64,000 bases of DNA from a virus: positions 62,001-126,000 of IMG/VR virus record IMGVR_UViG_3300025435_001056. One strand, 5' to 3'. The first letter of the stretch is position 1, and each line of letters opens with the position of its first letter. The notes under the pieces are model-generated. The model had not been told where the DNA came from, made no database searches, and worked only from the letters and a program-made list of their open reading frames with translations. A program made the position numbers and the translations under genes. Of this stretch, positions 13,646-60,516 are shown one piece after another.

Positions 13646-14236
13646 ATGAATTTAGTTCCGATGGTAATTGAAAAAACCGCCAATGGCGAACGGGCAATGG
13701 ATATCCAGTCCAGACTGCTTAGAGACAGGATCATTATGTTAATGGATGATGTTAACGAACACTCGGCCAGTTTGATTGTAGCGCAGATGTTGTTTTTAGA
13801 GTCAGAAGACCCTGATCGCGATATCTTGTTTTATATCAACAGCCCAGGCGGCGTAGTCACAGCCGGAATGGCTATCTATGATACCATGAACTTTATCAAG
13901 CCCGATGTTTCAACAGTGGTCATGGGTCAGGCCTGCTCTATGGGATCGTTATTGGCTCAGGCTGGAGCTGCAGGCAAGCGTTTGATTTTGCCCAACGCAC
14001 GACACATGATTCATCAACCGTCAGGCGGTGCAAGAGGTCAAGCAACAGATATTCAGATTCAAGCACAAGAGATCTTAAAGATGAAAAAGTACCTGACTGA
14101 GATCTATGTCAAACACAACACAGCTGGCAAGATCTTCGACGAGCTTACAGCTGATATGGAACGCGATTTTTTTATGAGTGCGGAAGAATCTGTGGCCTAT
14201 GGCTTAGCTGATCGGGTTATTGCCAAGCGAGTGTAG
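13646..14236 (+). CDS. clpP: ATP-dependent Clp protease proteolytic subunit
   Basis: The 196 residues align along canonical Clp[35 protein letters not shown] with nucleophile Ser98, [10 protein letters not shown] with His123, and [11 protein letters not shown] with Asp174. ClpP forms two stacked heptameric rings and degrades proteins fed by ClpA or ClpX. Host ClpX/ClpA, with phage ClpS as adaptor, are plausible partners. AGAAGG precedes the ATG. It is much closer to bacterial ClpP than the 10547 gene is. Confidence 0.95.
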
Positions 14237-22850: not shown

Positions 22851-23660
22851 TTATACTCCAAAGAATCCGCCAAACTCCACCGCACGATAGCGATAGTAGG
22901 CCGTGGATGCTGTGGCATCTGTTGTGGCATATACCTGTAGTAATCCACTGCCGTTGACATTGGCAGTGTAGGTTGCATGTGGTATAGATCCACTTGTAGT
23001 AGATACTGTGCCCACGGCCACATTGGCAGTGCCGCCTTGATTTTTAGTAACATAAATCGCGGCCAGTTCTGTGTCGCTGTCACTGGTAGTGCCGTATTGG
23101 TAGTTGATTCGTAACTCCAAGGCTATAATGGTAGGGTCACTCACAGTATAGACCAAGGTCGGCGTGTTGACGCCAATGGTAGGATCTACACTCTTGCCCG
23201 GAATAATGTCGGCCACACCGGCGTTGCCATTGCGGATAATGGTTCTGCTGATATAGATATTGCCAGTGTCGCTGGGTGATCCCAGGCTGAAATCCACAGC
23301 AGTATTAGCTGTGGTAATACCCGGAATAGGCAAGTCATTGGGTTGATCACTAACAGTTAATCTACCCACAAATACATTCTTGTCCGCGGTGATTTCACCG
23401 CCTGTGGCATATAGATTGTCAAACACCGCATGTATGGTGCCATCCACTGTCAGGGACTGTGTAAAATCGCCACCCACGCCCACAGTCACATTGCTGGTAG
23501 TGCTCAAGGTGCTGACATTGCTGATGTTGTAGCCGTTGCCATCCAGGTTAGCAGTGAGTGTGCCGCCAAATGTGCCGGTTGGACCGGTGGCACCTTGTGC
23601 GCCAACTATGGCCAGTTGCCACGATGATGTTCCTGAGTCCCAATATTTTAATACTGACAT
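22851..23660 (-). CDS. Tail-fibre protein with short collagen-like segment, 269 aa
   Basis: A trimming-type start (MSVLKYWDSGTSSWQLA) is followed by a very short Gly-X-Y run (GAQGATGPTG), then fibre beta repeats (NLDGNGYNISNVSTLSTT) shared with the larger fibres. The C-terminal 150 residues form a distinct beta domain (LELRINYQYGTTSDSDTELA) probably at the tip. AGGAAAA precedes the ATG. Late structural gene. Confidence 0.8.
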   Translation of the reverse strand: MSVLKYWDSGTSSWQLAIVGAQGATGPTGTFGGTLTANLDGNGYNISNVSTLSTTSNVTVGVGGDFTQSLTVDGTIHAVFDNLYATGGEITADKNVFVGRLTVSDQPNDLPIPGITTANTAVDFSLGSPSDTGNIYISRTIIRNGNAGVADIIPGKSVDPTIGVNTPTLVYTVSDPTIIALELRINYQYGTTSDSDTELAAIYVTKNQGGTANVAVGTVSTTSGSIPHATYTANVNGSGLLQVYATTDATASTAYYRYRAVEFGGFFGV

Positions 23661-23676
23661 TTTGTTTTCCTATTCA

Positions 23677-26667: not shown

Positions 26668-26677
26668 TTATTTGTCC

Positions 26678-29600
26678 TTAGTCGTATGTCTGGTTAAATT
26701 CTACAACATCAAATGTAAAGTAGTATGATCCATTGCTGGCTGTTCCGTTACCAGTAGCAGTGGCATTGATGAACATGGTGCCGTAGATGGGATCATAGGC
26801 AGGAACAATCACCACATCATCTTCGGTTGGATCTGTTTTGAGTCGATTGGTTATGCTGTAAGTTATGTCGCCAGAATCATTTCTGGCGGCAAAAATATCG
26901 GCCATCTGCATGTTTTGTGGTGTGCCGGCTCCGTGTTGGATACGCATGGTCATCCGAAATGCCCAGACCTTTGCGTTGTATGCGGTGTAGACCACCTGTG
27001 GAGAGCCAAAATCAGCACTCTGTATGAGGGTAGAAATTGTAACTTGATTGGTGCTGCCCGAGTTAGGTGATATGATTCTGCGTGTGCCGTATAGGCCCAG
27101 CTGCTCACCTTCGTAAGGGTTACCTGGATCGTAACTATTTTCTGTGCCAATCTTGACTGCGGGCAATATTACCTGACCGGATTCGTTGAACACGGTGGCT
27201 TTTGAGTTGACAGTTAGAGTTATATTTCCCCAGTCACCGTCGCCTTGCCCGGCATTGATTAGCACACTACCACCTACGGTCGCACAGCCAGTTGCGGTGC
27301 CACCATTCAATACCAAGGCTCCACCGGCCGAAGGAAGTCCACCTATACCGTTGGTTGTGCTGCCGCCACTCAAGACCAATGCACCAGCTATACGGTCAGT
27401 ATTGGCAGTTGCCCCAGTGATATACATTGTATTACCAAAATTGTTGCTGGTGATATTACCACCAACATTTAAGGTGCCGGTATTATCAAACTGCCAATAA
27501 CCTTGTGATCCAGTGCCATCACCATAGGTTGTGATATCAATATTACCATCTGGATAGGCTGTGAGACAACCAGCATAGTTTCCGTTGGCATAGAAACTGG
27601 TAAAGCTGGTTGGATTACCATTGCCACCATCCAGGCCTGTCCAGCCCTTGCCAGCAAAGCCTAGGCGGCCGCCACTTGGTAGGTATATCTCGCCATCTGC
27701 ACCAAAAGTCCAAAATCTGGTTGTGGTATTGGCAGTGTCATAAGTTTCAATGACAACATTGCTCAGGGTATTGACTGTGCTGATTGTGGTATCACTAAAG
27801 GTAATATTGCCAGTGTTGGCTGTGCCACTGCCCAGACTGACCTGAATGCCGTTGGCATAGTTTACAGCAAAAGTGTTGCCCGGTAATGTTAGGTTACCGG
27901 TTGGGTCAAAGGCCCAGGTCTTAGGGCTGGTGCTGTTGCCGGTAAGGACCAAGATGTTGCCATCGGCATATGAGTTGAAATCTATGGTGGCTATGTTGCC
28001 GGGACTGAAGGCATTGGTTACCCAGCCTACAGTGGCTGAAGCATTGGCACCTGCACCATATATTGCTAATACATTTCCATTATTGATCAACACTGATCCT
28101 GGTGCAATACCTATATCTCCAAGGTAGAGATTACCGTTGGTTTGGAATGAGTTGGCTGTGATATTGCCAGTGGTGCTGACGGAGTTGCTACCAAATGCAC
28201 CCAGCAAGGAAACCACATTTGAATCACCGTAGTTGCCGGTAACTCCATTCAAAATACTAACACCATTGGCATAGTTGATATTGCTGGTATTCAATGGTAG
28301 GGTTAGGTTGCCGGTGGTATCAAATGTCCATGTGTTGGCTGTACCGGCTTTGTTGCTTTGGATGCGCACATTGGTGGCGGCCATGAAGTCGGAGTTAGTA
28401 TCAGTGACAGCGATTCTATCCTGACCAGCTCGTTTCACATAGAAGTTGGCCGCGGAATTGATCGTCATGTTGGTTCCGCCATCTACTTTGATGTAACCGT
28501 TGTTGGTTGTACCGCCATCACTGCTGAATACGATCTGATCAAAAGCATCGGTATTCAGTAAGGTGATTGCGTTGGAGAATACATTGCCCACAACACTCAT
28601 GACAGCTGGGCCACCAGTAGAGGCCACAATAAACTGTCCATTGTAGGGTGATAAAGTTACAACACCAGCTTCAGATTCAAAAATCGTGCTGCCACCGCCA
28701 TCCCAGACAATAGCACCACTGGTAGCACCGGTGTTTTGACCGATATGCACATTACCGGCACCGTCAAAGGCCAAGTAGTTGATATAACCGTCGTTATCTA
28801 CACCGTTGACAAATCCTACCACATTGCCTACGCCTGACAGACCGCCTAAGCTCACATTGCTGGCCACCAACTGAGCACCTGTTAAGTTGAAGTTAATGTT
28901 ACCGGTGGTATCAAAAGTCCAAGAATAATCTGTGCCTGCATTGGTATTGATTGTGACATTGCCGTTGGCCATAGGAATGGACACATTGCTGAGACCATTA
29001 TAAATTGTGTTGGCTGTGCCGCCGCCTGCTGGTCCATAAGTTAATTCGTTGGTCGTGCTGTTGAAGTAAACAGCATTGGCAGTGTTGCTGGTATCATTGC
29101 GAACAGGATTAACATAGAATCCTGAGTTAGTTGGGTTTTGTGCCATAACAGCACCAGAGCCGTTTAATACAATGCTGTTTGCTGGTTGATTTGTGTAGCC
29201 AGCATAATATCCAATGGCTATAGCATTATCGCCTTGAGTTTCACCGCCAGCATAGTTACCAATGGCTATGGCATTGTTGCCTTGCTGGTCATAGGCTGCT
29301 GAGTAGCCAATGGCCACAGCAAAATCATGTTGGTTAGTTTGACCGGCGTAAGGACCAACAGCTACTGAATATTGTCCTTGTCCTTCGCTACCAGCACTAT
29401 CACCGACAGCAACACTGCTAGCACCTTGATTATTACCAGTCAAATAGCCAATGGAAATATTGTTTGGACCATACAAATTGTTGATATTGCCAATATTGGC
29501 CCAGGCTACTGAAATTCCTGTGAGGTTTGAACCGTCGCCGTGTAAGTAAGCACCAACAATGTTGCCAGTGGTTTCTATGTTAGCACTTCCTGTTAATGCA

Positions 29601-31489
29601 ACATTGCCGGTATTGATCACCCATGGTCCAGGACCACTACTGTTTACATCGAATTCGATATTGCCACCGCTGCTACTGATGTAAAGAGTTGGAGTGGCAT
29701 CAAAACCAATATAACCTAGATTGTTACCATTTTGAACAAAATACAAATCAGCATATGGGTCAACATACACACTGGCTGAAAAACCAGTTATGCTGTTAGA
29801 CAAAGTAGAGGTATTGCCCCAGCTTAGTATGCCTGTGCCATCTGTAGTTAATACCTGTGTGTTGCTACCAGTATCAACTGGAAGTGTAAGTGTGTAGCCT
29901 GCTGTGCTAGCATTGGGTTGTAGCACTACATTGTTGGTGCCAAGGCCTGTGCCAATACTGCTGACATTGGCGATTGAGAAACCTTCACCATCCATGTTTT
30001 GAGTAAGTTGGCCACTGAATACTCCAGTGGCGCCTGTAGCACCTATTCCAGTGGCTCCAGTTATGCCTGTAGCACCTGTAGTTCCTGCTACGCCTGTGGC
30101 ACCTGTAGTGCCTTGAATACCTGTAGCACCAGTTGTGCCCATGATACCTGTCGCGCCCTGGAAGCCCATGACGCCAGTAGCTCCCTGGAAGCCCATAATA
30201 CCAGTTGCACCAATCACACCTTGTATGCCAGTGGCTCCCGCAAATCCTTGTATACCAGTTGCACCTTGGAAGCCCATGATACCAGTGGCACCAGTAGTTC
30301 CTTGAACACCAGTTGCACCAGCAAAGCCCATGATACCTGTAGCACCAATCAAGCCCTGTATGCCGGTGGCTCCCTGAATGCCCTGAACTCCAGTTGCACC
30401 TGAAAAGCCCTGTATGCCAGTAGCTCCCGTAAATCCTTGAATACCTGTAGCACCGGTTGAACCTATGCCAGTAGCACCAGTAGTTCCTTGAACACCAGTA
30501 GCACCTGTTGAACCAGTTGGCCCTTTGATTGTGCCCACATCAGTCCAGGTTCCGCCAGCATATACCCATAGGTCGCCGGTAGTTTGATCTATAACGCCAT
30601 CACCATTGACTGCACCTGGGAAAGCGGCGTTTAATGTTGCCTGCGGATCACCGCCCACAGTGGGCACCGATCCAATAATTGTTACACTGGTTCCTGTAGC
30701 ACCTACAGGGCCAGTGGCTCCACGCACACCTGTAGCACCAGTAGGTCCTGTAGCACCCGAAGCACCAATGCCTGTGGCTCCAATAAGGCCGGTAGCACCT
30801 GTAGCACCTGTGGTGCCTTGTGGTCCTGTAGCACCTGTTGTGCCAACTCCAGTGCTGCCTGTTGCACCACGAATGCCTGTGGCACCAATAAAGCCCTGTA
30901 TACCAGTGGCACCCGAAGCACCTCTAACGCCTGTGGCACCAATAAAGCCCATGATGCCCGTAGCACCCGGTGTTCCTTGTGGGCCAGTTGCTCCAGTAGT
31001 TCCTTGAACACCTGTTGCACCCGAAAATCCCTGAATACCAGTGGCTCCCTGGAAGCCCATAACGCCAGTGGCACCTGTAGTGCCAACTCCGGTAGCACCT
31101 GTGGTTCCACGAATGCCTGTTGCTCCTGGTGTGCCTTGTGGGCCAGTGGCTCCAGTAGCACCAACTCCAGTTGCTCCTGTAGTTCCCGGTGATCCAGTAG
31201 CGCCAGTGGCACCTGTTGTTCCCTGTGATCCTGTAGCTCCCGTGGCACCTGTGGTTCCACGAATGCCTGTTGCGCCTGTAGCACCTGTATATGAGGGTCC
31301 AGAAGCACCTGCTGCACCTGTAGCGCCTGTAGCGCCGGCTGAACCTGTGGCACCTGTGGCACCTGTGGCACCATTGACACCACCTGTGGCCACCCATTTG
31401 GTGCCGTCATAAGTGTAGGCCACACCATTCGAGGCAGTATACATGTCGCCTGGGTTGGCTGGGTAGGGAAAAACGATGTTTGTAGTCAT
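26678..31489 (-). CDS. Giant collagen-like tail fibre with YadA-like head repeats, 1603 aa
   Basis: The start ([21 protein letters not shown]) is a carbohydrate/fibre attachment type seen in phage fibres. Gly-X-Y tracts cover about residues 38-270 and 330-490, separated by a module reading [20 protein letters not shown]. The middle has [10 protein letters not shown]-type fibre repeats and, at about 29140-29470, YadA/trimeric-adhesin head repeats (SVAVG, AVAIG and AIAIG units). The C-terminal 100 residues are a separate beta domain. A long trimeric host-binding fibre is the clear role; a late-type promoter stands just upstream. Confidence 0.87.
30010..31385 (-). repeat. Collagen-like Gly-X-Y repeat tracts in the 1603-aa fibre
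   Basis: Two blocks of GAT-rich Gly-X-Y repeats (about 30010-30515 and 30690-31385) flank the [10 protein letters not shown] module at about 30530-30690, which also occurs in the 1631-residue fibre (36720-36890). Confidence 0.88.
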
Positions 31490-32914: not shown

Positions 32915-33615
32915 ACGCCAAATCTACCTTTCAACCCATAGTAGTTTTGTTGTATCTGTTCTACTGTGAGTTTGGTGTTATACAGTTCTAAATTGGCCAC
33001 ATAGCCCCAGGGCTGATCATTGGCCGTTTGTATATTACCCCAGGCATAGTGATACTGCCCAGCCACTGATTTGGCCACACTGGATCCAACCTGTTGGCCG
33101 TTGATATAGAATGTCTGACCTGAGGCATCGCCTACTGTGGCAAATTGGGCCCAGACATCACCATAGGCCGCCATGTTGTAGCCCGAACTGTTGAATCCAG
33201 TGTTAGCAGGAAGATTATCCCACATGCCCAACAGATTAGTCCCTGAATTAACAATGATGGCGTGACCGCCTGTTCCATAACATCTTAGCAGGGTTCTAAA
33301 AGGTGTTGTAGTGGATCTTACCCGCACCCAGCTGATGTAGGTAAAGTTTGTGGGTATCTGTATTGTAGTTGAGTTGGCTAGGATAACCTGCCCAGTGGCA
33401 CTACAGTTAAAACATTTTACGCCACTCAGCGTAGTATAAAGATTACTATTGCTCAAGGTATGTGTGTAACCATTTCCTGACAGGTCGTTTACAGTAGTTC
33501 CTGTGCCTGAATAGCTGGCAGCATTGTTGGCATCGAGATACAGAACCAGCCCAGTGGGCATGACGCCACCATCCACAACTCTTATTCCACGGAGTGCGAC
33601 ACCTTGTACGATCAT
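32911..33615 (-). CDS. Tail protein with one LamG/concanavalin-like domain, 234 aa
   Basis: One LamG-type domain ([20 protein letters not shown] ... [19 protein letters not shown]) follows the anchor [18 protein letters not shown] start it at the ATG that overlaps the upstream stop (ATGA), because the anchor matches the start of the 32914 gene; the longer frame from 33642 would extend into the upstream gene. It likely arose by duplication with its neighbour. Confidence 0.87.
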
Positions 33616-36600
33616 AGATACTCTAGGGCAACATGACAACACAACTGGCTGGAAGTACTACCGCCAGTTGAAGCACCTACAGCAATCCAGGTTCCTGCTG
33701 GAGTCCAACTAGTAATATCAATAGCATTGTCACATACTCCGGTGTCGCCAGTATACACATAGGCATATCGCTGTGCGCCTACTTTTCTAACCATGATACG
33801 GCTGGTTTGCCAGACGCCTTGATACACTACACCTGCTCTAAAGCTGACAGCGTTGCCGGTGGTAGCACCATTGCTATACCACTGTGTTCTAAGGTTAGTA
33901 TAAGTCAAGTATCTCAAGCCAACGGCACCGTTGGTTACACCTAATGGTTGCGAGGCACCGCCGTTGGTGTTGCCACCAAATGTGGCCCAGACACCATCTG
34001 CTGGATTAGATCCGCTATTGCTGGTAAACCAGGACCATTCCATGACAAAATCTTTGGTAAAATCAAAAGTAGTGGTATTCCAGGCCACCGAACCACTCTT
34101 GGCGGTGGTGTTGGCGGTGAGTTGAACACCGTCACTGAAGTTTGAGTAAGTAGCATCACCTAAGATCGATCCTGTAATTGACCCACCTGTGGCAGGTGTG
34201 CCGTGAATCATTGCAGTCCAGTCAAACTTGCGTTGATTAGCAAATATGGCCGGAGTGCTTGAAGACAATACAATATTACCAGCAGTGGTAATGATTGATT
34301 GGGCGTTGCTTAAAACAATATCACCACCGGCCGGTATGGTCAAATTACCGGTATTGTCAAAGGTCCAGGTATAACTGCCGGCTACAATGCCCACATTGGC
34401 CTGCGATCCTACAATATTGCCAGCGGCACTGTAAGTCACATTGGTCAGGCCAGCACCATTGCCAATGAAGTTACCGGCTGATATGTTACCTGTGGTAGAG
34501 ATGCTGTTACTGCCAATATTGGCCAAGTTGGCATTGCCATAACTGGCTGGTAATCCAGTAAGTTGGCTACCATTACCTATGAAGTAGTTGCCGGTGATAT
34601 TACCAGCGGCACTGATCACAGACTGTGTGTTGGCCAACAAGATGTCGCCTCCTGGCGGAACTGTTAGGTTGCCAGTGTTGTCAAAGGTCCAGGTATATGC
34701 GCCTGCTACCAGTTGAACATTGGCGCTGGTTCCGGTCACATTGCCGGTGATGTTTATGTTGCCAGTTATGTTGCCGGCTGTGATATTGCCTGTGGTGCTG
34801 ATCGTGTTGCTACCGTAGGCGGCCAAGAATGTTGCCACATTGCTATTGCCATAGGTAGCTGGTAATCCAGTGAGTTGGCTACCGTTACCAAACAAGTAGT
34901 TGCCGGTAATGTTGCCAGTAGTGCTAATCGTGGCCACATTTGAGATTGAGTAGCCTTGCCCATTGAGATTGGCAGTTAGGTTACCACTGAAACTTCCTGA
35001 GGCACCCGAGGCACCTGTGGCTCCTATGACACCTTGTAATTCTGTAGCACTAATAACTGGAGCAGTGCTTTCGCCCCAAGTAATAGTGGCACTTGCTCTT
35101 GGCATTTTCCAAGAATATGTGTATGTGCCAGCCGGTGGGTTATCTATGAAAACTTGGCATACGCTTTGATTTTCGTTGGCTGCGCTGGATTCAAAGAATT
35201 GTGGATTGCCCAGGGCCACAGCACCACGATACCATTGAACAGTTCCAAAAAATGCCGCAGAATTATTGACAGCATCACCCGAACCTACCAGTTCAACTGG
35301 ACCGCCGGTGGTTGTGATGGTCAGGCTCAATATTGTGCCATTGGCATTGACCACCGGAGGACTGGAAACATTGCCCAAGACCTGAACATAGTTCAATGAA
35401 CTCAATGCTCCGGCTCCGGTTGCACCGACTGGTCCTTGTAGGCCAGTTGCTCCGGTTGCGCCATTTGCGCCCGCTGTGCCAGTTGCACCTGTGGCACCCG
35501 AAGCACCAGCTGAACCCGAAGCACCTGTAGCACCATTGGCTCCTGCTGTGCCTGTTGCTCCACGAGCTCCGGTGGCACCTGTAGGACCAGTTGCTCCTGT
35601 GGCACCTGGTGTGTTGGGTGCGGCATCTACCCATTGGCTGCCTGATCCATCGGTATACCACAGGTATAATCTGCCAGAAACTTCATCCCACCAGAGTGTA
35701 GATGCTGTGGGACTGGTTGGTGCTGTGTTGCTTTGTATGATACTGCCCGAACCGCCACCTCCATTGCCAGTGCCCGAAGGTGCGGCCTGCACCCATTGGC
35801 TGCCGGACATGTCGGTATACCAAACAAAGAATGTGCCTGATACAGTGTCCCACCACAAGGTACTGCTGGTTGGTGATCCTGGCGCTGTATTACTCTGTAT
35901 GACTCCGCCGCCGGTGCCGCTGATGTTGGTCAGTTGACTGCCGTCGCCGATAAAATAGTTGGCTGTGATGTTGCCTATGTTGCTGATGCTGAAACCATTG
36001 CCATTGATGTTGGCAGTGAGATTTCCGTTAAACGCACCAGTAGCACCTGTGACGCCTGTGGCACCAGCTACACCTGTAGCACCTGTAGTGCCAGCTACAC
36101 CCGTGGCTCCAGTCTGTCCATCAACACCAGTGGCACCTTTAACGCCTGTGGCACCAGCTACACCTGTAGCACCTGTAGTGCCAGCTACACCCGTGGCTCC
36201 AGTGGTGCCTTTTACACCTGTGGCACCTGATGCACCTATGCCGGTAGCACCTGTAGGGCCTTGAACGCCTGTAGCACCTGGTGTTCCCTGTGGTCCTGTA
36301 GCACCAGTTGATCCACGAACACCTGTGGCACCCACAGTTCCTGCAACACCTGTAGCACCTGCGGGTCCTTGTGATCCAGTGGCACCGGTTGATCCACGAA
36401 CACCTGTGGCTCCTGGAGATCCAGTGACACCTGTAGCACCTGTGGTTCCACGAACACCCGTAGCTCCAGTAGAACCTATGCCAGTGGCACCTGTGGTTCC
36501 TTGTGGTCCTGTGGATCCCTGAACACCAGTAGCACCAGTTGTGCCAACACCAGTGGCTCCTGTGGTTCCACGCACACCTGTAGCCCCTGTTGCTCCACGG

Positions 36601-38507
36601 ATGCCCGTAGCTCCTGTGGGTCCTTGGATACCAGTAGCACCTGTGGTTCCTTGTGGTCCTGTGGCACCCGCTACTCCAGTTGAGCCTTGAACACCTGTGG
36701 CTCCTGTTGGGCCTTGTATTTGCCCCACATCATTCCATAGGGCACCGTCATAGACCCAAAGATGGCCAGTGGTTTGATCCAGCACACCGTCGCCGGCTAC
36801 TGCACCTGGGAATGCCGCATTTAATGTGGCCTGAGGATCACCACCCACTGTGGGTACTGATCCAATGATAACAACACTGGTTCCAGCTGGTCCAGTTGCT
36901 CCTGTAGCACCTGGCACTGTGCTATCAGCACCGGTTGCACCTGTAGTTCCTTGTGGTCCTGTTGCACCTGCAACACCAGTTGAACCTGTGGCTCCCATGA
37001 CCCCTGTAGCACCTGTAGGGCCTGTGGTGCCTTGAACACCAGTGGCACCAGTAAATCCTTGAACGCCTGTGGCTCCTTGCACACCAGTAGAACCAGCTAC
37101 ACCTGTAGCGCCAATTCCAGTAGCACCTGTGACACCAGTAGCACCACGAACACCGGTTGCTCCAGTGTCTCCTTTTAATCCTGATGCTCCTGATGCTCCA
37201 GTAGCACCACGAACACCTGTGGCTCCTACCACACCTGTGGCACCAGTTGCCCCTTCTAGGCCTGACGCACCTGTGGCGCCAGTTGATCCACGCACACCAG
37301 TGGCACCTGTTGTACCAGTGGCACCTGTGGCACCTTCTATTCCTGTAGCACCTGTAGCGCCAGTTGTTCCTGCGTTTCCTGTGGCACCTCTTACGCCTGT
37401 AGCACCAGTGGCTCCATATATACCAGTTGCACCTGTGGTTCCTGTTGCTCCTTTAACTCCGGTAGCGCCTTGCACGCCAGTAGCACCAACGGCACCACTT
37501 GCGCCTGTGGCACCGGTTGATCCCAATGATCCTGTGGCACCTCTTAAACCCGTTGCACCTTGTAGTCCCGACGCACCCGTAGCACCTGTAGCACCTTGTA
37601 ATCCAGAAGCTCCTGTAGCACCTGTGGCACCAAATCCGGTAATTGGCGTGCCATTGGCATAGTTTACTGCAAATGTATTGCCCGGAAGTGTCAGATTGCC
37701 GGCGGTATCAAAGATCCAGGCAGCACTGGCGCCGCTGTGGATTTGTACATTGCCATTGGCAACGGGAATAGCCACATTGCTAGTGCCGTTAAAAATGGTG
37801 TTGCTGGTGGTATTGATACCGGTCAGTTGACTACCATTGCCCAACAGATATGCACCCGAAATATTGCCGTTGGCAGTGATGTGTCCACCAACTTGGATGT
37901 TGCCCGGAATGGTCAGGTTGTCAACAGTGATGTTGCCGCCGTTATAGTCTACATAATCGGCATAAACGGTATTCCATCTCAGGGCAGGAGAACCCAGATT
38001 TCTTATGTGTGCCTGATCGGGCAAGACATGAGCATTGGCTATGACATTGCCAATTCCGTTGGGATTCAACACCAAGTTGCCGTTGGTATTGGTGGTTTGA
38101 ATGGTGTTGTTGGCAATGACTACATTGCTCAAGACCGGACCTGCGGCAAAGATCTGGTCAAAGTTCACATTTACGGCAGTGAAGGCTTGATTCAGTGATT
38201 CACCGGGTGGCACAGTGGGTATGATCTGTTGACCGCCTTGATTGATGGTGGCCAACATGGTGCCCGAACCGTTGGAGACCGCATAGGTGCTGCCGCCAGG
38301 CAAGGTGGTTAAGGTGATGTTGCTGGTAGGGTATCCAACTGTGATGTTACCGATATAGTAGGTGGTATTGGCAGTGATGTTGCCAAATGTTGTGCCGCTG
38401 AAAACGATCGGCAATCCTGGGAACATGTTGGCGGTGGATGCGACAGCAACGGCGTTTCCAATTGAAAATGTGGCTGTAGCCGTGGTTGTAAAAATATTCG
38501 AACTCAT
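33612..38507 (-). CDS. Giant collagen-like tail fibre with lectin-like C-terminus, 1631 aa
   Basis: The N-terminal 290 residues are a phage fibre shaft/anchor ([48 protein letters not shown]). Gly-X-Y tracts fill about 290-490 and 555-770, around the [16 protein letters not shown] module. Two tandem copies of a TLWWDxVSGxxxxWYTD segment and a small Ig-like domain follow, then repeats of [15 protein letters not shown]. The last 170 residues ([25 protein letters not shown]) look like a legume-lectin-type fold. First gene of the late fibre operon, behind AGGATA. Confidence 0.86.
36015..37640 (-). repeat. Collagen-like Gly-X-Y repeat tracts in the 1631-aa fibre
   Basis: GAT-rich Gly-X-Y repeats in two blocks (about 36015-36710 and 36880-37640); a shorter block lies at 35420-35610. 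Confidence 0.88.
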
Positions 38508-38639: not shown

Positions 38640-38903
38640 ATGAAACATTTTAATCCAGAAACAAAAACTTTTAAAGTATTTTCCGCATTGCAATCTGGCA
38701 AGGCTTTGACAGCTAGCCAGGCAAGCAAATTAGGAGTTAAGAACTTATCAGCTGAAATCACCCGTATCCGCCAACATGGATTTGCTGTCTATACGAATTC
38801 TCGTAAAGCTGGCAACGGTGTGCAGGTCACAGAATATGTGCTTGGAAAACCTTCAAGAAAGATCGTAGCCGCCGGTTACCGTGCCCTTGCGTTGGGTCTT
38901 TAA
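38640..38903 (+). CDS. Winged-helix/HTH DNA-binding protein, 87 aa
   Basis: The protein has an N-terminal helical DNA-binding core: FNPETKTFKVFSALQSGKAL, then ASQASKLGVKNLSAEITRIR (helix-turn-helix with the recognition helix at about 37-47) and a wing with an aromatic tip. Proteins of this type are frequent in aquatic T4-like phages. It probably regulates transcription; the leader stem-loop in front of it may be its own target. AAAGG precedes the ATG. Confidence 0.8.
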   Translation: MKHFNPETKTFKVFSALQSGKALTASQASKLGVKNLSAEITRIRQHGFAVYTNSRKAGNGVQVTEYVLGKPSRKIVAAGYRALALGL

Positions 38904-39562
38904 TCTAACGCAGTAACACTCCGTTCGGTAGTGTTACTATGGCCCTCGTGCAATGCGAGGGCTTTTTTACGGGCCCAATATTCCTTCATTGTTTGACTTG
39001 TTTTTGTTTTGTGCTCTTCAGTCATCTTCCGACCCTTTAATGCGGCACTTAATTTGGCTCTAATTTCTGGAGTATTTTTATGCCCATGACGGCCTTTTCG
39101 TGTAGCACTCATCTTGGCTCGAGTTTCATCCGTTACTATTCGAGTGCGATTTGCTTCACTAATCTTAGCTCTGGTTTCTTTGCTTAATACACGCCCTTGA
39201 TTTGATTTGCTTATTTTGGCTCGAGTTTCTGCGGAATTTATCTTACCTTTACTAATTTTACTAAGTTTAGATCGAGTTTCTGCGGTATGAGTATATCCAG
39301 TAACACCTTCGCCGCCATCGGTCATATTGCGTAAAATACCAGTTTGTAAATCTTTTCGCCCATACCAACGGATCATTCTGCGTTCAATAGCAAATGCACC
39401 CAATTCAGTTAAATTGGTTTCAAGCATAACAATCCGTTTTTTATCTTTAGGAACTGGAATATTTCGATGCCAGTCCCAAGCACGATTACCGTGCCCTTTT
39501 CCAATATAGTAAGGTGTGCCATCTTGTCTAAGGTAGGCGTAAACATAATAAGTATTGTTCAA
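38900..39562 (-). CDS. GIY-YIG homing endonuclease with NUMOD3-like repeats
   Basis: From a TTG start behind AGGAGG, the protein (220 residues) begins NNTYYVYAYLRQDGTPYYIG, the GIY-YIG core variant, with RAWDWHR and ERRMIRWYGR helices. At least six short repeats of the type SxETRAKIS(K/E)xxxGR follow (NUMOD3 DNA-binding modules). The long frame to 39652 lacks a ribosome site. Its C-terminus is encoded by the terminator of the opposite gene, as if the gene had landed next to it. Confidence 0.87.
   Translation of the reverse strand: MNNTYYVYAYLRQDGTPYYIGKGHGNRAWDWHRNIPVPKDKKRIVMLETNLTELGAFAIERRMIRWYGRKDLQTGILRNMTDGGEGVTGYTHTAETRSKLSKISKGKINSAETRAKISKSNQGRVLSKETRAKISEANRTRIVTDETRAKMSATRKGRHGHKNTPEIRAKLSAALKGRKMTEEHKTKTSQTMKEYWARKKALALHEGHSNTTERSVTALD
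38912..38968 (+). terminator. Double-hairpin terminator overlapping the GIY-YIG gene end
   Basis: A 9-bp stem (38912-38920 with 38930-38938) is followed by a 7-bp GC-rich stem (38942-38948 with 38956-38962) and six T. On the other strand the same bases code for the last 20 or so residues of the GIY-YIG protein. Confidence 0.8.
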
Positions 39563-39620
39563 GCTGATGCTCCTCCTGAGCGTTAGAGTAGTTGGGGTTC
39601 CAGCCCGCGAACTACACCTA

Positions 39621-39626
39621 TATTTA
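39621..39626 (-). promoter_or_regulatory. Late-type promoter (GTAAATA) with 5' stem-loop, for the GIY-YIG gene
   Basis: Minus-strand TAAATA predicts +1 at 39615, the first base of a GTAGTT...AACTAC stem with an inner GGG/CCC. It abuts the -35 of the plus-strand promoter at 39631, giving a back-to-back late/early pair. Confidence 0.55.
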
Positions 39627-39630
39627 CCAG

Positions 39631-39659
39631 TTGACCAGTAAATCCATTTCAAGTATAAT
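39631..39659 (+). promoter_or_regulatory. Early-type promoter (TTGACC family)
   Basis: TTGACC, 17 nt, TATAAT; drives the 39688-44953 block of small genes. Confidence 0.75.
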
Positions 39660-45707: not shown

Positions 45708-45736
45708 TTGACACAGTAATAGTTTTGTTGTAAAAT
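45708..45736 (+). promoter_or_regulatory. Sigma70-like promoter of the ParB-like/ABC-GNAT operon
   Basis: TTGACA, 17 nt, TAAAAT, about 60 nt upstream of the ATG at 45799. It begins two bases after the previous stop. Confidence 0.7.
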
Positions 45737-45798
45737 AGTAGTTAATTGGCAATAGATGAATAAAAACTTGCGCCAAATACAATTTGAAAGAAAATAAA

Positions 45799-47025
45799 AT
45801 GCAATCAGTAAGTAATCTTGTCGTAGATAGCACAACAGCGCCACAGTGCGTTCCTCCACAGACCTATGCTCAAAAGGTCAATTCCAAATACAGTAATTCA
45901 GACTCATTCTTTGTAGATCTCAAGAAAAGAATTGACGATACCATAAACGGATTACCACATTTCAAACAGATAGGGTTGCGTGGTAGCCTAAAAAATGCCA
46001 TGGATATTTGGCAAAAAAACTTTTCTCATATTAAACAGTTTTCAGATTTGCAATTGGTCAATTGTCACTATCGACCTCTCAGCGATATATTGATCGATAC
46101 AACCATGCAGAGAAAATTAGATTTATCCTGGGTCATGTATTTGTTGAAAAAGTTTTGTGAAGTGCAGGCAGTACCAATTCAAGTCTATCAAGTAATCAAA
46201 GGTGAAGCTGAACTAAATTACTGTCCTGTAGGCGAAGAGTTATATGCTAGCTGGGATGGTCAACACACCGCTGTGCTATTTTATTTCATTGCTGTTTGGA
46301 TACTGGGTGAAGATCCTACCAAAGTTATGATTCCAGTAAACATTTATCCAGTTAGTAAAAAAAGCGTAATCCGTCAGGTGTTTGTTGGCAATAACAGTAG
46401 CGATGGCAAAAAACTTTTGGAGGAAATCGACCTATTCCAGCAAAAAGTCTATGGTGTCCGCATTGACGAAAACAACAATCCAGACTGGGTGTCTGCCGAG
46501 CTCAAGCAACAGTATCTTGAACAGGCAGATTTATTTGTTACAGCAGAAAAATTTGGAGATACCCAAGAACCCGGAGCTATCAGTCGTATGCAAGAAATAA
46601 ATGGCTATTCTAGCGACATCATTCGTAAGTTTGCCATATACACCACAACCATTCCAGTAGCTCGACCAATTGCCAGTCAGGAAATAGAGATCATGTGTCG
46701 TTTCTTTGATGTTGCCAAGTCCAGTGCAGTAGATTACACTGACGAGGAAATAGTTGATCTAGGACAACATTTGCATGGATTGTTTGACGCTAATTTTCAC
46801 GAAAGTAGTCCGCTTTGGGACAAAGTACGCACAGCCTACAATAACTGGTGGGATGATTTTTATGACGGAATTCCAGAGGACCGTAAACCTACTCGCAGTC
46901 GTGTTAGCAAGAATTGGACCACAGGAGGACCTTTTTTATGGCATCAATTGAAAAAAACTTGGGATGGCCGTTTGCCAAGAATGATCAACAGTCCATTTCA
47001 ACCATTTGCTAAGGATCTGTATTAA
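45799..47025 (+). CDS. ParB/DGQHR-like protein, 408 aa
   Basis: The region HYRPLSDILIDTTMQRKLDL (about 90-110) to LYASWDGQHTAVLFYF (149-164, DGQHT at 153-157) has the ParB-N/DGQHR pattern, in which an aspartate-glycine-x-His core sits in a nucleotide-binding or nuclease-like fold. The C-terminal 200 residues are helical and unrecognised. The start at 45799 lacks a strong ribosome site. It heads a three-gene operon with an unknown 187-residue protein and an ABC-ATPase/GNAT fusion. A DNA-modifying or DNA-sensing role is inferred from that context. Confidence 0.7.
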   Translation: MQSVSNLVVDSTTAPQCVPPQTYAQKVNSKYSNSDSFFVDLKKRIDDTINGLPHFKQIGLRGSLKNAMDIWQKNFSHIKQFSDLQLVNCHYRPLSDILIDTTMQRKLDLSWVMYLLKKFCEVQAVPIQVYQVIKGEAELNYCPVGEELYASWDGQHTAVLFYFIAVWILGEDPTKVMIPVNIYPVSKKSVIRQVFVGNNSSDGKKLLEEIDLFQQKVYGVRIDENNNPDWVSAELKQQYLEQADLFVTAEKFGDTQEPGAISRMQEINGYSSDIIRKFAIYTTTIPVARPIASQEIEIMCRFFDVAKSSAVDYTDEEIVDLGQHLHGLFDANFHESSPLWDKVRTAYNNWWDDFYDGIPEDRKPTRSRVSKNWTTGGPFLWHQLKKTWDGRLPRMINSPFQPFAKDLY

Positions 47026-47026
47026 C

Positions 47027-47590
47027 ATGAAAAATACTCAATCCTTGGTGGAAGGATTTGTCAAACCCAGTAGAGGACGCGGTGTCAAACGCGACGATTT
47101 GGCTTATGAACAGGCCCTAGAAACCACAACTATAGAATTAGAGCGACTATTAGATATCTATCGCACCACTGTATTTGTGGAGGACATGCGAGCCCGATTG
47201 TATCGCGATAGCATTGATCACTGGATTCGTCGTTATCACGGTTATGCAATTGAAGGAAAAATTAAAAGTCATTATCGCGAAATTGGAGTAGACGAAAAAG
47301 ATTCGGTATTTGAACACGTGCTACCGGCTAGTAGTGTGGTAGACATGCTGATACAGGATCGATTGACCATTAATCAAGCTCTGAATACCCCGACCTGTCT
47401 GATCAAAAAATCTAGTGACCTAGTGTTAAAGGACAATGGTCTGACCAAACAGAGCCCAGATAATTGGCGTTTTTTTCGACGTTATTCAGTTTTAAATTCT
47501 AGTTTTGTAACGTATGACGGGAAAGCAATTACCAATATCAATGACTGGACATTGGATAATCACTGGAATTTATTTGGAATAACACTATGA
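47027..47590 (+). CDS. Unknown protein, middle gene of the ParB-like/ABC-GNAT operon
   Basis: No family is certain in these 187 residues. The layout RLYRDSIDHWIRRYHGYAIE ... DSVFEHVLPASSVVDMLI ... KQSPDNWRFFRRY with Glu96-His97-x-x-Pro100 resembles HNH-type nucleases, in which EHxxP is part of the metal site, but the Cys/Asn partners are not obvious. Its end overlaps the next ATG. It starts one base after the ParB-like gene. Confidence 0.6.
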   Translation: MKNTQSLVEGFVKPSRGRGVKRDDLAYEQALETTTIELERLLDIYRTTVFVEDMRARLYRDSIDHWIRRYHGYAIEGKIKSHYREIGVDEKDSVFEHVLPASSVVDMLIQDRLTINQALNTPTCLIKKSSDLVLKDNGLTKQSPDNWRFFRRYSVLNSSFVTYDGKAITNINDWTLDNHWNLFGITL

Positions 47591-48645
47591 GCTATCTGGA
47601 CGAAATACGAAAAAAGTACGACATACGGGACCATGTAGAGTCCCCAGTAACCATACCCAATTTGCCCAAGGAAGGAATCGTACTGATTGTGGGTACTTCG
47701 GGGTCGGGCAAAAGTACTATACTACGCAACCTAGGTATTGCTAAGTCTCCGGTGGTAAACAATGACCGCACAACCATTGAAAACTTTTCCTCTCCCGAGC
47801 GTGGTGAAGAACTCTTGTTGGCCTCTGGGCTTAGATCAATACCTGCTTGGTTCAGACCTCCTGGCACCTTGAGCAATGGTGAATATCACCGCTTTGAAAT
47901 GGCTCTGTGCCTGGACCAAGGCATTGGTGTGGTCGATGAGTTTACCAGCGTGGTTGATCGAGACACTGCCAAGAGCCTGGCCTACAGCATGCGCAAGTAT
48001 TATGATCAGCGTGGCACTGACCAGCCCTTGTACATAGCATCATGCCACAGAGACATTATTGACTGGTTAGATCCTGATTACATCTACGACACTGACATGC
48101 AGGAATTAACTGCAAGGGGGTCGCTTCATCTTCGATTGGGGCGAAGACCCGAACTCACACTCACCATCAAAAGCACAAGTGTCGACCATTGGCGACATTT
48201 CCGCCGTCATCACTATTTAGATACTGCTATCTCACGAAGTGCTCACTACTATGTCCTACTGCTGGGTGACAAGCCCATCGGCTTTCATGCCGCCATACAC
48301 TCAACCAACAGAGATATTCACTCCTACTGGCGTGGGCATAGAACTGTGATCCTGCCCGAGTTTCAGGGTATGGGCATAGGTACTGCCTTCTCAGATGCCA
48401 TTGCTGAGATCTATGTGAGTCACGGATTTAGATACTTTAGCAAGACAGCACATCCAAGTTTTGGTGAACATCGTCAAAAGAGTCCGCTCTGGCGAGCCAC
48501 CAGTACCAACTTGAAAAGTCGCTTAGGCAGTTACCTGCTGAAAGATGGCACTGCTAGAAAGATGCCCGGCTATGGTGGCACCACTACTGCCAGAGATGCT
48601 GGTCGACTTTGCTACAGCCACGAATACATTGGCAAAAAATCCTAG
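47587..48645 (+). CDS. ABC-type ATPase fused to a GNAT (Mom-like) acyltransferase domain, 352 aa
   Basis: The N-terminal half (1-175) is a soluble ABC ATPase: Walker A GTSGSGKST (36-44), signature LSNGE (95-99), Walker B IGVVDE (113-118) and the H-loop His154. The C-terminal half (195-345) is a GNAT domain with HWRHFRRHHYLD, RTVILPEFQGMGIGTAFSD and KTAHPSFGEHRQKSPLWR. The closest look-alike I recall is the Mom-type and 'ABC-GNAT' families of mobile elements. Mom adds an acyl-derived group to adenine in phage Mu DNA. No transmembrane part exists, so it is not a transporter. Confidence 0.88.
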   Translation: MSYLDEIRKKYDIRDHVESPVTIPNLPKEGIVLIVGTSGSGKSTILRNLGIAKSPVVNNDRTTIENFSSPERGEELLLASGLRSIPAWFRPPGTLSNGEYHRFEMALCLDQGIGVVDEFTSVVDRDTAKSLAYSMRKYYDQRGTDQPLYIASCHRDIIDWLDPDYIYDTDMQELTARGSLHLRLGRRPELTLTIKSTSVDHWRHFRRHHYLDTAISRSAHYYVLLLGDKPIGFHAAIHSTNRDIHSYWRGHRTVILPEFQGMGIGTAFSDAIAEIYVSHGFRYFSKTAHPSFGEHRQKSPLWRATSTNLKSRLGSYLLKDGTARKMPGYGGTTTARDAGRLCYSHEYIGKKS

Positions 48646-48697: not shown

Positions 48698-48749
48698 TTG
48701 ACAATAGAGATATATAATTATACAATAAACTATCAGTACAAACACTGAT
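48698..48749 (+). promoter_or_regulatory. Sigma70-like promoter with 5'-terminal hairpin for the ahpC operon
   Basis: TTGACA, 17 nt, TACAAT (48721-48726). The predicted +1 near 48733 coincides with an ATCAGT/ACTGAT hairpin (48732-48749). AAAGGAAA precedes the ATG. Confidence 0.65.
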
Positions 48750-48779: not shown

Positions 48780-49322
48780 ATGAAAACAGTAGGACACAAA
48801 TTAGAAAAGTTTACAGTAACCGGCGTTCGTCCAGGACAGCCAGAGGATGCATTTTTTGACATCACCGACGAGTCATTCGCCGGCAAGTGGAAGGTAATTG
48901 TTTACTATCCAAAAGATTTTACATTCGTATGCCCAACTGAAATTGTTGCATATGACAAATTGAATCAGGACTTTGAGGATCGCGATGCAGTCCTGTTGAC
49001 AGGTTCAACCGACAACGAGTTCTGTAAGGTCAGCTGGCAAAAGAGCCACCCAGACTTGATTAATATCAAGCACACACAGTTTGCTGACACACAGCGTGGC
49101 GAGTTATCATTGATTGAGCAGTTGGGAGTATTCTATGCTCCTGCCGGTGCCGCACTTCGTGCCACATTTATTGTTGATCCAGACAACACAATCCAACACG
49201 TTACAGTCAACAACTTGGATGTGGGTCGTAGCCCAGAAGAAACACTTCGTGTGTTGGATGCGTTACAAACAGGCGAATTGTGTGCTTGTAACCGCACCGT
49301 AGGCGGAGCCACTTTATCGTGA
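48780..49322 (+). CDS. ahpC: Peroxiredoxin AhpC-type
   Basis: The 180 residues are a typical 2-Cys peroxiredoxin: KDFTFVCPTEIVAY with peroxidatic Cys51, TDNEFCKVSWQ, RATFIVDPDNTIQH, and resolving Cys in ELCACN near 168. It reduces H2O2 and organic peroxides. The AhpF partner is absent, but AhpD is encoded two genes downstream, as in actinobacterial AhpC/AhpD. The middle gene is a DUF2061 membrane protein. Own promoter and strong ribosome site. Confidence 0.95.
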   Translation: MKTVGHKLEKFTVTGVRPGQPEDAFFDITDESFAGKWKVIVYYPKDFTFVCPTEIVAYDKLNQDFEDRDAVLLTGSTDNEFCKVSWQKSHPDLINIKHTQFADTQRGELSLIEQLGVFYAPAGAALRATFIVDPDNTIQHVTVNNLDVGRSPEETLRVLDALQTGELCACNRTVGGATLS

Positions 49323-49522
49323 GCGATGATGCTGTACGCAGTCTGGCCAAGGCCGTCAGTTGGCGGGTCACCGGAACCATTGATACTTTCATTATCAGTT
49401 GGATCATAACCGGTGAACCCTTGATTGCCAGTGGGATTGCGTTTACAGAAATCATGACCAAAATAGCATTGTTTTGGGCCCATGAACGGGTCTGGAACCG
49501 AATACAATGGGGAAAGAAATGA
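49319..49522 (+). CDS. DUF2061 family membrane protein, 67 aa
   Basis: The sequence SLAKAVSWRVTGTIDTFIIS and TEIMTKIALFWAHERVWNRI matches DUF2061, small predicted inner-membrane proteins with two helices. It starts with GTG overlapping the ahpC stop (GTGA), and its stop overlaps the AhpD start. DUF2061 genes are often found near cysteine/sulfur or adenylylsulfate kinase genes in bacteria; the role in a peroxide operon is not known. Confidence 0.85.
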   Translation: MSDDAVRSLAKAVSWRVTGTIDTFIISWIITGEPLIASGIAFTEIMTKIALFWAHERVWNRIQWGKK

Positions 49523-50037
49523 GTTGGATAGATACTATCAAGGAAGCATTACCAGATTATGCCAAAGACATAAAATTAAATCTGGATTCAGTTATTAAAA
49601 GAAGTACCTTAACAGATGAAGTTGCTAATGCGTGTGCGTTAGCCGCGGCGTTTGCTACAGGTAATGGTAAATTAATTACATTTGTTAGCAGTAATTTTAC
49701 AGACGAACAAACTGTTGTTCGTGATGCCGCACTTACAGCGGCAAGTTTAATGGCAATGACAAATAGTTGGTACCCCTATGTTGAAATGGCCGACGATCCT
49801 GCGTTAAAAGGCTTACCTGCTCAACTCAGGATGAACGCTATTGCTAGCCACGGTGGTACAACTAAGGCTAATTTTGAAGCATTTAGTTTGGCCGCAAGCA
49901 TTGTGGGCAAGTGTCATTTCTGTGTCAAGGCACACTACGAAGGTCTCAAAAAGATGGGTTACACAGTAGAACAGTTGCGTGACATTGGTCGTATTGCCGC
50001 GGTAATCAACTCGGTGGCCAAGGTGTTGAATTCGTAA
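49519..50037 (+). CDS. ahpD: Alkylhydroperoxidase AhpD-family protein
   Basis: The helical 172-residue protein has the AhpD core at KCHFCVKAHYEGLKKMG: Cys132-x-x-Cys135 and His139, the proton relay and disulfide pair that reduce AhpC with electrons from lipoamide enzymes. The start at MSWIDTIKEA (49519) is preferred over the upstream in-frame GTG/ATG because the preceding codons belong to the DUF2061 gene. AhpC and AhpD together would give a complete two-component peroxidase if host dihydrolipoamide is available. Confidence 0.93.
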   Translation: MSWIDTIKEALPDYAKDIKLNLDSVIKRSTLTDEVANACALAAAFATGNGKLITFVSSNFTDEQTVVRDAALTAASLMAMTNSWYPYVEMADDPALKGLPAQLRMNAIASHGGTTKANFEAFSLAASIVGKCHFCVKAHYEGLKKMGYTVEQLRDIGRIAAVINSVAKVLNS

Positions 50038-50539: not shown

Positions 50540-51424
50540 ATGAGTGTAATCATACTGACAAAACTGGATCGTAACGAATACGAATCGACTCGTTTAGTTG
50601 AAAGTTTTGCGGCCAAGGGCATTGAAGCTCGTATGTGCCATCCCGACGACTTTGATATCATTGTGGATCTCGACATACATAAGGGCATCAAGTACAAGGG
50701 CGAAGATCTAGAACTGCCCAAACTGGTCCTGGTGCGGTTGGGTGCCGGCATACTGCCATTCCAACTGGCAGTGGTGCGTCATTTTGAACAGGCTGGGATT
50801 CCTTGTATCAACGGTAGTTTGCCTATAGAAACGGTCAAGGACAAGTTGCGTAGTAGCCAAATCTTAAGTCGATCAGGTATTCCTATTCCCAACACCATGA
50901 TGGTGCGATTACCCATAGACGATGGACTAGTGGAAACAAACATTGGCTTTCCCTGTGTGGTCAAGGTTGTAACCGGTTCGTACGGTGAAGGTGTTTATCT
51001 TTGCGAACGAAAACGCGACTACAAGAAGTTGATGGAGTTTGTGGACAACCTGGGCAACAAAAAAACCATGATAGTGCAGGAATACCTGGGTGAACGACCT
51101 GGTGAAGACCTGCGAGTCTTGGTCATAGGCGGCAAGGTCATAGGTGCCATGCGCCGTACCGCACCCGAAGGTGATTTCCGTGCCAACATCACCAACGGCG
51201 GCACTGGCGAAAACTTTGAAGTCACAGAAGAAATCGACTACATTGCCAGAAAAACAGCTCGATCTCTAAATTTAGACATTGCTGGTGTTGATTTGTTGTT
51301 TGACAAGCGTGGATTCCGTGTGTGTGAAGCCAACTCAAATCCTGGTTTTATTGGCTTTGAAAGATTCTGTGGCGTAGATGTAGCAGATTTAATCACGGAA
51401 TATATCAAGTTCCGCACACAGTAA
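50540..51424 (+). CDS. RimK-type alpha-L-glutamate ligase (ATP-grasp)
   Basis: The 294-residue ATP-grasp protein has IPIPNTMMVRLPI, PCVVKVVTGSYGEGVYLCE, MIVQEYLGERPGEDLRVLVI, GKVIGAMRRTAPEGDFRANI and FRVCEANSNPGFIGFE with the metal-binding Glu and Asn. RimK adds glutamates to ribosomal protein S6; relatives make coenzyme F420-gamma-glutamate or mysosporine-like tails. A phage copy could modify the host ribosome or a virion protein. It is preceded by a leaderless late-type start and followed by a perfect-palindrome terminator. Confidence 0.92.
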   Translation: MSVIILTKLDRNEYESTRLVESFAAKGIEARMCHPDDFDIIVDLDIHKGIKYKGEDLELPKLVLVRLGAGILPFQLAVVRHFEQAGIPCINGSLPIETVKDKLRSSQILSRSGIPIPNTMMVRLPIDDGLVETNIGFPCVVKVVTGSYGEGVYLCERKRDYKKLMEFVDNLGNKKTMIVQEYLGERPGEDLRVLVIGGKVIGAMRRTAPEGDFRANITNGGTGENFEVTEEIDYIARKTARSLNLDIAGVDLLFDKRGFRVCEANSNPGFIGFERFCGVDVADLITEYIKFRTQ

Positions 51425-59477: not shown

Positions 59478-60020
59478 ATGCGTGAAATAATTGACCTAGT
59501 AGAAGCTTCTACCCGACCAGCCAAGCTGGAAACCACAACCTTGCCCTACACTCACAAGGCCTTGGAACCGGTTATGAGTGCAGATACCATTGAGTATCAT
59601 TACGAACATTTGGCCAAGGGCTATGCAAAGAAATACAATGCAGGCGAAGGCGACCCTGACTTTAATCGTGCTGGAAGTTTCCTGCACAACAAGTTCTTCC
59701 CACAGTTGCGTGAACCTCGCGGTGCCAATAGACCCAAGGGTGCAGTATTGGAACTGATTGAAACCAAGTTCAAAACCTACGAAGACTTTAAAGCAGCAGT
59801 TAAAGAAGTGGCCATGAAGATCCAAGGAAGTGGTTGGATATATCTATCAACCGGTGGCGAAATCAAAACCATTCGCAATCATGCTGTTCGTACCGATATC
59901 TGTGTCTTGATTGACTGGTGGGAGCACTCGTGGAGTTTGGATTATCAATGGGACAAAGAGAAGTATTTGGATAACATCTGGAAGATTATCAACTGGGATG
60001 TTTGCAACGAACGGTTGTAG
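59478..60020 (+). CDS. Fe/Mn superoxide dismutase with capsid-targeting-like N-terminus
   Basis: The 180 residues align to FeSOD/MnSOD: LPYTHKALEPVMSADTIEYH, with metal ligands His41, His70 (FLHNKFF), Asp146 and His150 (DWWEHSW), plus GSGWIYL and a C-terminal DNIWKIINWD. It converts superoxide to O2 and H2O2. The first 19 residues (REIIDLVEASTRP...) are extra compared with bacterial SOD and match the start of the 531-residue protein; L-V-E|A fits the T4 prohead-protease site. It may be packaged in the capsid. H2O2 made here could be handled by the phage AhpC/AhpD. Confidence 0.93.
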   Translation: MREIIDLVEASTRPAKLETTTLPYTHKALEPVMSADTIEYHYEHLAKGYAKKYNAGEGDPDFNRAGSFLHNKFFPQLREPRGANRPKGAVLELIETKFKTYEDFKAAVKEVAMKIQGSGWIYLSTGGEIKTIRNHAVRTDICVLIDWWEHSWSLDYQWDKEKYLDNIWKIINWDVCNERL

Positions 60021-60023
60021 TCA

Positions 60024-60043
60024 TAAATACTCGTGGGAACACG
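60024..60043 (+). promoter_or_regulatory. Late-type promoter (CATAAATA) with GNRA-loop hairpin before the HNH gene
   Basis: TAAATA 60024-60029. CGTG-GGAA-CACG (60032-60043) is a small hairpin with a GNRA tetraloop, 5 nt before the ATG at 60049. Confidence 0.45.
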
Positions 60044-60048
60044 CAACC

Positions 60049-60516
60049 ATGAGAACAACCAAAAAACACAGACGCATTTACGAAGATTATTATAATGTAA
60101 GATTGCCAAGCATTATTGAAATACATCATATTGATGGCAATCACGATAACAATGATATCACAAACTTAATGGCAGTTACTATCGAAGAGCACTTTGAAAT
60201 TCATAGACAACAGGGCGATTACGCTGCGGCATTTAGAATATCACAAAGAATGGAAGTTAGCAAAGAGGAAAAAAGTAGATTGGCATCCTTAGCCGCAACC
60301 AAAGCCAATGCAGAAGGAAAATGCGGGTTTAAATTGGGTCATGCTTCGATCGCTGGAAAGGTAGGCGGCAAAAAAGGTGGCGCCTATGCTAAGGAAAACC
60401 GTACAGGAATATTTGCATTAACACCCGAACAGAATAAACAACGACATTTCAATTCTGTAGTAACCAAAATGATTAAAGCCGGCAAAGCAAGTGCTTGGCC
60501 AAGAGAGGAAATATGA
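60049..60516 (+). CDS. HNH homing endonuclease
   Basis: [20 protein letters not shown] (about 24-43) carries the HNH core: His26, His27, Asn35 and Asn39, with His52 after EEHFE. The C-terminal half is Lys/Gly-rich ([17 protein letters not shown]), as in other phage HNH enzymes. The gene sits between SOD and ErpA and its stop overlaps the ErpA ATG, as if inserted into a co-transcribed unit. The frame is open upstream into the SOD gene; I use the first ATG. Confidence 0.85.

Follow-up and report, generated by a model that had tools for sequence, protein, structure and literature searches.

Mom of phage Mu carries out a modification of DNA adenine and has a GNAT fold. A structure of Mom is available as PDB 8bv8. 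Proteins in which a GNAT domain is coupled with an ABC ATPase have been predicted to be enzymes that modify DNA bases with acyl groups (Iyer et al., 2013, given as ref. 136 in the relevant passage of PMC7824862). This function has stood as a prediction since 2013, and no biochemical record of DNA modification by an ABC-GNAT protein was found in the literature searched. Other DNA-modifying enzymes of phages, those of the CmoX type, are also accompanied by ParB domains (PMC12783734). In restriction, the GmrSD type IV systems (DUF262/DUF1524 or HNH) combine a ParB-superfamily domain with an HNH-type nuclease.

Here we describe a locus from an uncultivated virus in which a ParB/DGQHR-type gene, an orphan gene and an ABC-GNAT gene (genes A, B and C) lie together. 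The stretch of DNA analysed, hereafter the window, comprises 64,000 nt and corresponds to positions 62,001-126,000 of the 176.6-kb record IMGVR_UViG_3300025435_001056.

Organisation of the locus

Genes A, B and C are all encoded on the + strand and make up a compact operon-like block at window positions 45708-48645. The features of the block and its downstream border are:

45708..45736, + strand: sigma-70-like promoter TTGACA-17-TAAAAT, 11/12 consensus positions, heading the operon
45799..47025, + strand: gene A, 408 aa, ParB/DGQHR-superfamily protein (by hhalign and motif conservation) with motifs IDTTMQR and WDGQHT
47027..47590, + strand: gene B, 187 aa, orphan family (FEHV.PA, RRYH, LN.PT, H179)
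47587..48645, + strand: gene C, 352 aa, soluble ABC ATPase-GNAT acyltransferase fusion, PHROG 11143
48698..48726, + strand: promoter-like site TTGACA-17-TACAAT, heading an AhpC-like gene; the operon is bounded here on its downstream side

The TAA of gene A ends at 47025 and the ATG of B lies at 47027, while B and C share a 4-nt ATGA overlap in which the ATG of C begins at 47587 and the TGA of B occupies 47588-47590. The longest open reading frame for gene A begins at a TTG (45784), which was dropped because the alignments of homologues begin at ATG 45799, making this the likely start. Within the window, 11 sites of promoter grade as good as that at 45708 lie on the + strand and 0 on the - strand. 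Since the AhpC-like gene has a promoter-like site of its own (48698), the trio is bounded at both ends. An earlier note on this DNA had proposed a three-gene operon with one promoter and abutting or overlapping genes; the coordinates, the promoter match and the ATGA overlap confirm this arrangement, and on these sequence grounds we take the block to be a genuine operon.

The AhpC-like peroxiredoxin gene (48780-49322) lies close to a carboxymuconolactone-decarboxylase (AhpD-like) gene (49507-50037), the two representing a phage-borne peroxide-defence pair, and a peroxiredoxin is also found downstream of C in loci L016 and L025. Elsewhere the window encodes a RimK-like ATP-grasp ligase (50540-51424; PF08443, 3e-48), a fatty acid desaturase (9348-10058; PF00487, 3.8e-16) and, judged from the translations alone, two ClpP-like proteases (10547-11125, 13646-14236). 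GIY-YIG, NUMOD3 and HNH genes (12727-13596, 38900-39652, 59911-60516) are probably homing endonucleases, and several very long proteins with collagen-like G-A-T-G repeats (22851-31489, 33612-38507) are probably virion fibres.

Gene A and the ParB/DGQHR superfamily

Comparison of a profile of A (73 sequences) with the DGQHR-type family using hhalign gave a probability of 99.7% (E 5e-26). Members of the joint A/DGQHR alignment match phrog_1033 (ParB-like) at 7.6e-6, and one of 21 members matches DndB (PF14072) at 4e-4; A itself gave no match to PF14072. The DGQHR profile match, together with the ParB-like and DndB matches of the alignment members, assigns A to the ParB/DGQHR superfamily as judged by profile comparison. 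Across the 73 homologues W152, Q155 and T157 are conserved in 100% and D153 and H156 in 96%, and Q104-R105, N-terminal to the DGQHT motif, is invariant. A therefore has the QR and DGQH(R/T) motifs in common with the superfamily (ParB_N; DndB), and the previous description of it as a ParB/DGQHT-type protein is borne out. It differs from its DGQHR relatives in having T for the R of DGQHR and a long C-terminal part, and it has no direct Pfam match.

Assignment of A to DUF262 was tried and rejected (hhalign probability 0.1, in a comparison against two DUF262 sequences only). Single-sequence AlphaFold models of A and B had a pLDDT of 35 and were not usable. No relatives of A or B were found in cultured phages; single-sequence scans gave none, and scans with alignments gave viral relatives, with 168 confirmed stretches for A and 220 for B in uncultivated viruses.

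Gene B and its exchange with HNH nucleases

For 64 distinct A genes the following gene could be read: it is B in 34 cases, an HNH gene in 26 and neither in four. The HNH partner of A is a textbook HNH nuclease, and these counts indicate that B occupies the HNH slot. B, for which 75 homologues were collected, has no meaningful Pfam, PHROG or PDB relative, and the A-B module, with an orphan B in the place of the HNH nuclease, is new.

Several identities for B were considered and rejected. B matches no HNH profile and shows no homology with the HNH protein that partners A, so that the equivalence between them is positional only, and the 'HNH-like' label given to B in the earlier note finds no support in any profile. 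A comparison with DUF1524 gave a probability of 0.7, inside the range of shuffled sequences, and matches to 'ribosomal protein S6' (0.008) and to DUF3418 (4.6e-5, in 2/12 members) were taken as chance.

Viral A-HNH pairs resemble GmrSD systems. For the A-B pair, DUF262 was not detected in A, in the comparison with two DUF262 sequences, nor DUF1524 in B, and the pair was not assigned to this group. Pairs of a ParB/DGQHR gene and a zinc-type HNH gene from uncultivated viruses (loci L301-L335) resemble a two-gene restriction module without cultured relatives.

Gene C encodes an ABC ATPase-GNAT fusion

The ABC domain of C contains Walker A (G36..K42), the signature LSNGE (95-99), Walker B (D117) with the catalytic E118, the D-loop (D124/R125) and H154, and the GNAT domain contains H209-Y210 and the CoA motif R252..Q260-G-x-G-x-G265. 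Across 151 homologues each of these residues is invariant or almost so, in agreement with the full ABC motifs and GNAT domain of a soluble protein that had been noticed before. Pfam recovered Acetyltransf_1 at 1.3e-5 and ABC_tran at 2.6e-4, the second of these under the ABC_tran cut-off.

Over its full length C matches PHROG 11143 (7e-81), the family with predicted ABC-GNAT DNA-acylation function, with which it shares domain architecture as well as full-length homology and to which it belongs. The published example phage pT24 also matches C by tblastn, with 35% identity over the full length. The family is present in at least 81 records of isolated phages, in at least 598 confirmed stretches of viral contigs and in 467 stretches of bacterial and archaeal genomes. 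The core enzyme class is common and has already been published as a prediction, rather than being newly described, and for this reason the view that the operon is the strongest candidate here for an undescribed system is not supported.

The distance from Walker A to the signature is 54 residues in C, against some 104 for the closest match in the PDB, which indicates that the helical subdomain through which transporters couple to a permease is largely absent from C. No membrane part was found in C and no permease gene in the operon. We therefore rejected an ABC transporter ATPase identity for C, which lacks both a full helical subdomain and a permease partner in the operon. Matches of C in PADLOC (mad3, mad8, PtuA, AriA) mostly span the P-loop alone, and so no defence-system assignment was made.

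Neighbours of gene C

The earlier note had suggested surveying gene neighbourhoods for pairs of ParB-like and ABC-GNAT genes, and such pairs proved frequent. In 40/65 bacterial-genome loci the gene immediately upstream of C encodes a small ParB protein (in one more it is within two genes), against 0/451 distant ORFs. For isolated phages the corresponding values are 6/13 loci and 0/82. Two of 66 viral C genes have a small-ParB neighbour, and many viral C genes are placed among replication genes. The small ParB proteins adjoining C or Mom consist of the ParB domain and a short tail, and nothing else. Whereas the usual partner of an ABC-GNAT gene is such a small ParB gene, in the window C follows the large ParB/DGQHR protein A and the orphan B. 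The small ParB-C pair is commonly found just ahead of terminase-sized ORFs, and in Leptospira LE4, Pmp13 and Sisko a terminase is annotated a short way downstream.

Directly after C, a formyltransferase (PF00551) gene is present in five carriers, the Komp, Porphyromonas and Sisko phages and two further loci (labels L004, L007, L013, L165 and L168), and an aspartate decarboxylase (PF02261) gene in two, Jace and one further locus (L011 and L166). These carriers are unrelated phages and prophages. Such neighbours suggest variation of the group that C would transfer, and it is possible that their products make or modify the acyl group.

Exchange of Mom and ABC-GNAT genes

The Arthrobacter phages EastWest (L010) and Martha (L352) share a syntenic locus, with flanking proteins that are 65, 55, 80 and 45% identical. 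In EastWest this locus contains ParB followed by ABC-GNAT, and in Martha ParB is followed by a small gene and then by Mom; in phage Appa, ParB is directly followed by Mom. Aeromonas phage PX29 carries both a member of the ABC-GNAT family and Mom. We consider this exchange in Arthrobacter phages to be the best indirect evidence that ABC-GNAT proteins may do a Mom-like job.

Mom is like C in being a GNAT-class phage enzyme with an H(H)Y motif early in the domain, in having a ParB partner in some phages and in the exchangeable position in Arthrobacter phages. Unlike C, it lacks an ABC domain and the canonical Q-x-x-G-x-G CoA motif, the absence of which was seen across the Mom sequences. Comparison of the GNAT domain of C with Mom by hhalign gave a probability of 7% (E 0.005), a weak similarity. 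The score of 25.1 lies above all 60 shuffles (maximum 22.1), which is far from proof. Elsewhere in the 176.6-kb record the Mom profile gave no match.

How A-B and C are combined

It can be seen from the surveyed contigs that the full A-B-C trio is present in about seven distinct ones, the window included. A-B pairs are without C in 29/34 cases, C is mostly without A-B, and B often abuts C. In terms of gene order, A-B is a stable module to which C is a frequent add-on. A+B (or A+HNH) and C are separable, and it is not the trio that is conserved.

Among the 14 relatives closest to C, with 71-81% identity, the cassettes found upstream are swapped. They include A+B, DGQHR+HNH+B, HNH alone, another ParB-like gene with a GIY-YIG-like gene and B, and methylase cassettes in which N6-methylase-type genes are accompanied either by a helicase or by a possible nuclease. 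C is preceded by B in nine loci, by HNH in L017 and by methylase genes in L018 and L028, and in L016 and L020 B is placed further upstream. TTGACx promoter-like sites stand at the head of most of these cassettes. The sites of the cassettes differ, with AhpC, rubrerythrin-like or other genes downstream, and the gene after B is also variable (C, HNH, a possible nuclease or unrelated genes). Swapped cassettes at varied sites would be expected of a mobile modification-plus-nuclease locus, a shared insertion hotspot being a live alternative.

Small proteins of PD-(D/E)XK appearance adjoin B or C in four loci (L022:5237-6001, L024:4759-5433, L028:4084-4803, L029:4968-5444). They have motifs such as YDIKCR, VEFKTS and IELKVS and no meaningful Pfam match, and are possible new nucleases.

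Discussion

Our best reading, to which we give a probability of about 0.55, is that C is a phage DNA-acylation enzyme combined with an exchangeable A-B recognition/nuclease cassette, the two together providing modification plus restriction. The GNAT domain of C would bind an acyl-CoA-type donor and transfer its acyl group to a base in the DNA. The short ABC domain, free of transporter parts, would be a clamp or switch, driven by ATP, for engaging or releasing DNA. The modification would shield the phage genome against nucleases. A, as a ParB/DGQHR-type protein binding DNA or nucleotides, would be the recognition half of its pair, and B the effector half, probably a nuclease or nuclease adaptor given that relatives carry an HNH nuclease in its place. 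C would thus mark self DNA and A-B would attack unmarked DNA of the host or of rival phages; the pairing of A-B relatives with HNH nucleases hints at such a phage-borne self/non-self DNA system. For the functional coupling of A-B and C we argue from their co-location in about seven contigs only. Also counting against this reading are the weak profile similarity between the GNAT domain and Mom, the lack of any nuclease profile match for B, the predominance of A-B pairs without C and the many viral C genes that lie among replication genes with no small ParB beside them. The domains, the operon, the superfamily of A, the exchange of B with HNH, the ParB partnership of C and the exchange of ABC-GNAT with Mom can be read from the sequences; DNA as the substrate, acylation, protection, nuclease activity of B and cooperation of A-B with C are inferred.

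The DNA-modification reading put forward in the earlier note holds in respect of the class of C, a family for which DNA acylation is predicted in the passage of PMC7824862 concerned, and the context of ParB, Mom, methyltransferase and nuclease genes agrees with it; the modification itself keeps the standing of a prediction. The widespread ABC-GNAT fusion C probably tags phage DNA. We would go further only tentatively, and think it unlikely, that the locus is a restriction-modification system with new chemistry, in which an ATP-driven GNAT acylates the phage's bases while A and a new nuclease family, B, destroy unacylated host or rival DNA, B being exchangeable with HNH or methylase-type partners.

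C might modify DNA while A-B has no connection with it: A-B would be a mobile module or one used in competition between phages, perhaps attacking rival phages in a GmrSD-like, modification-dependent way, and would have landed upstream and come to share a promoter without sharing a task. The many A-B pairs without C, the rarity of A-B beside C and the variable gene after B, as in an insertion hotspot, are consistent with this. We nevertheless regard it as somewhat unlikely, since B or another nuclease or methylase cassette is upstream of C in 14/14 of the closest relatives, at several genomic sites, with tight gene overlap and mostly with a promoter at the head. A and B might instead belong to the modification side, A providing C with specificity or DNA binding and B being an accessory loader and not a nuclease. 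The bare ParB-plus-tail form of the small proteins adjoining C and Mom, and the ParB domains alongside CmoX-type modifying enzymes (PMC12783734), speak for this possibility, but A, with its 408 aa, is unlike a small ParB and has HNH nucleases as partners in viruses with no C nearby, and we find it doubtful.

That C is not a DNA enzyme at all seems very unlikely to us. Its GNAT domain would then acetylate a host or viral protein or a small molecule, and the ABC domain would serve to switch this activity. GNAT targets are mostly proteins or small molecules, which counts in favour of this, as does the merely generic GNAT assignment that Pfam returns for C. The phage GNAT Rac, moreover, acts on host RNA polymerase (as cited in PMC7824862, in the part concerned). 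Against it stand the strong ParB partnership, the terminase-sized ORFs that follow, the replacement by Mom and the methylase and nuclease neighbours, as well as the independent earlier prediction of DNA acylation (same passage of PMC7824862).

The ABC-GNAT class is carried by many cultured phages and prophages, and in the literature searched its role in DNA modification is still a prediction. The ParB partnership, the exchange with Mom and the formyltransferase and aspartate decarboxylase neighbours provide concrete phages and donor hypotheses for mass spectrometry, with EastWest and Martha as a natural comparison pair for such an analysis of their DNA. The A-B/A-HNH family, which was not seen among isolated phages, would represent a new nuclease or sensor module in uncultivated viruses.
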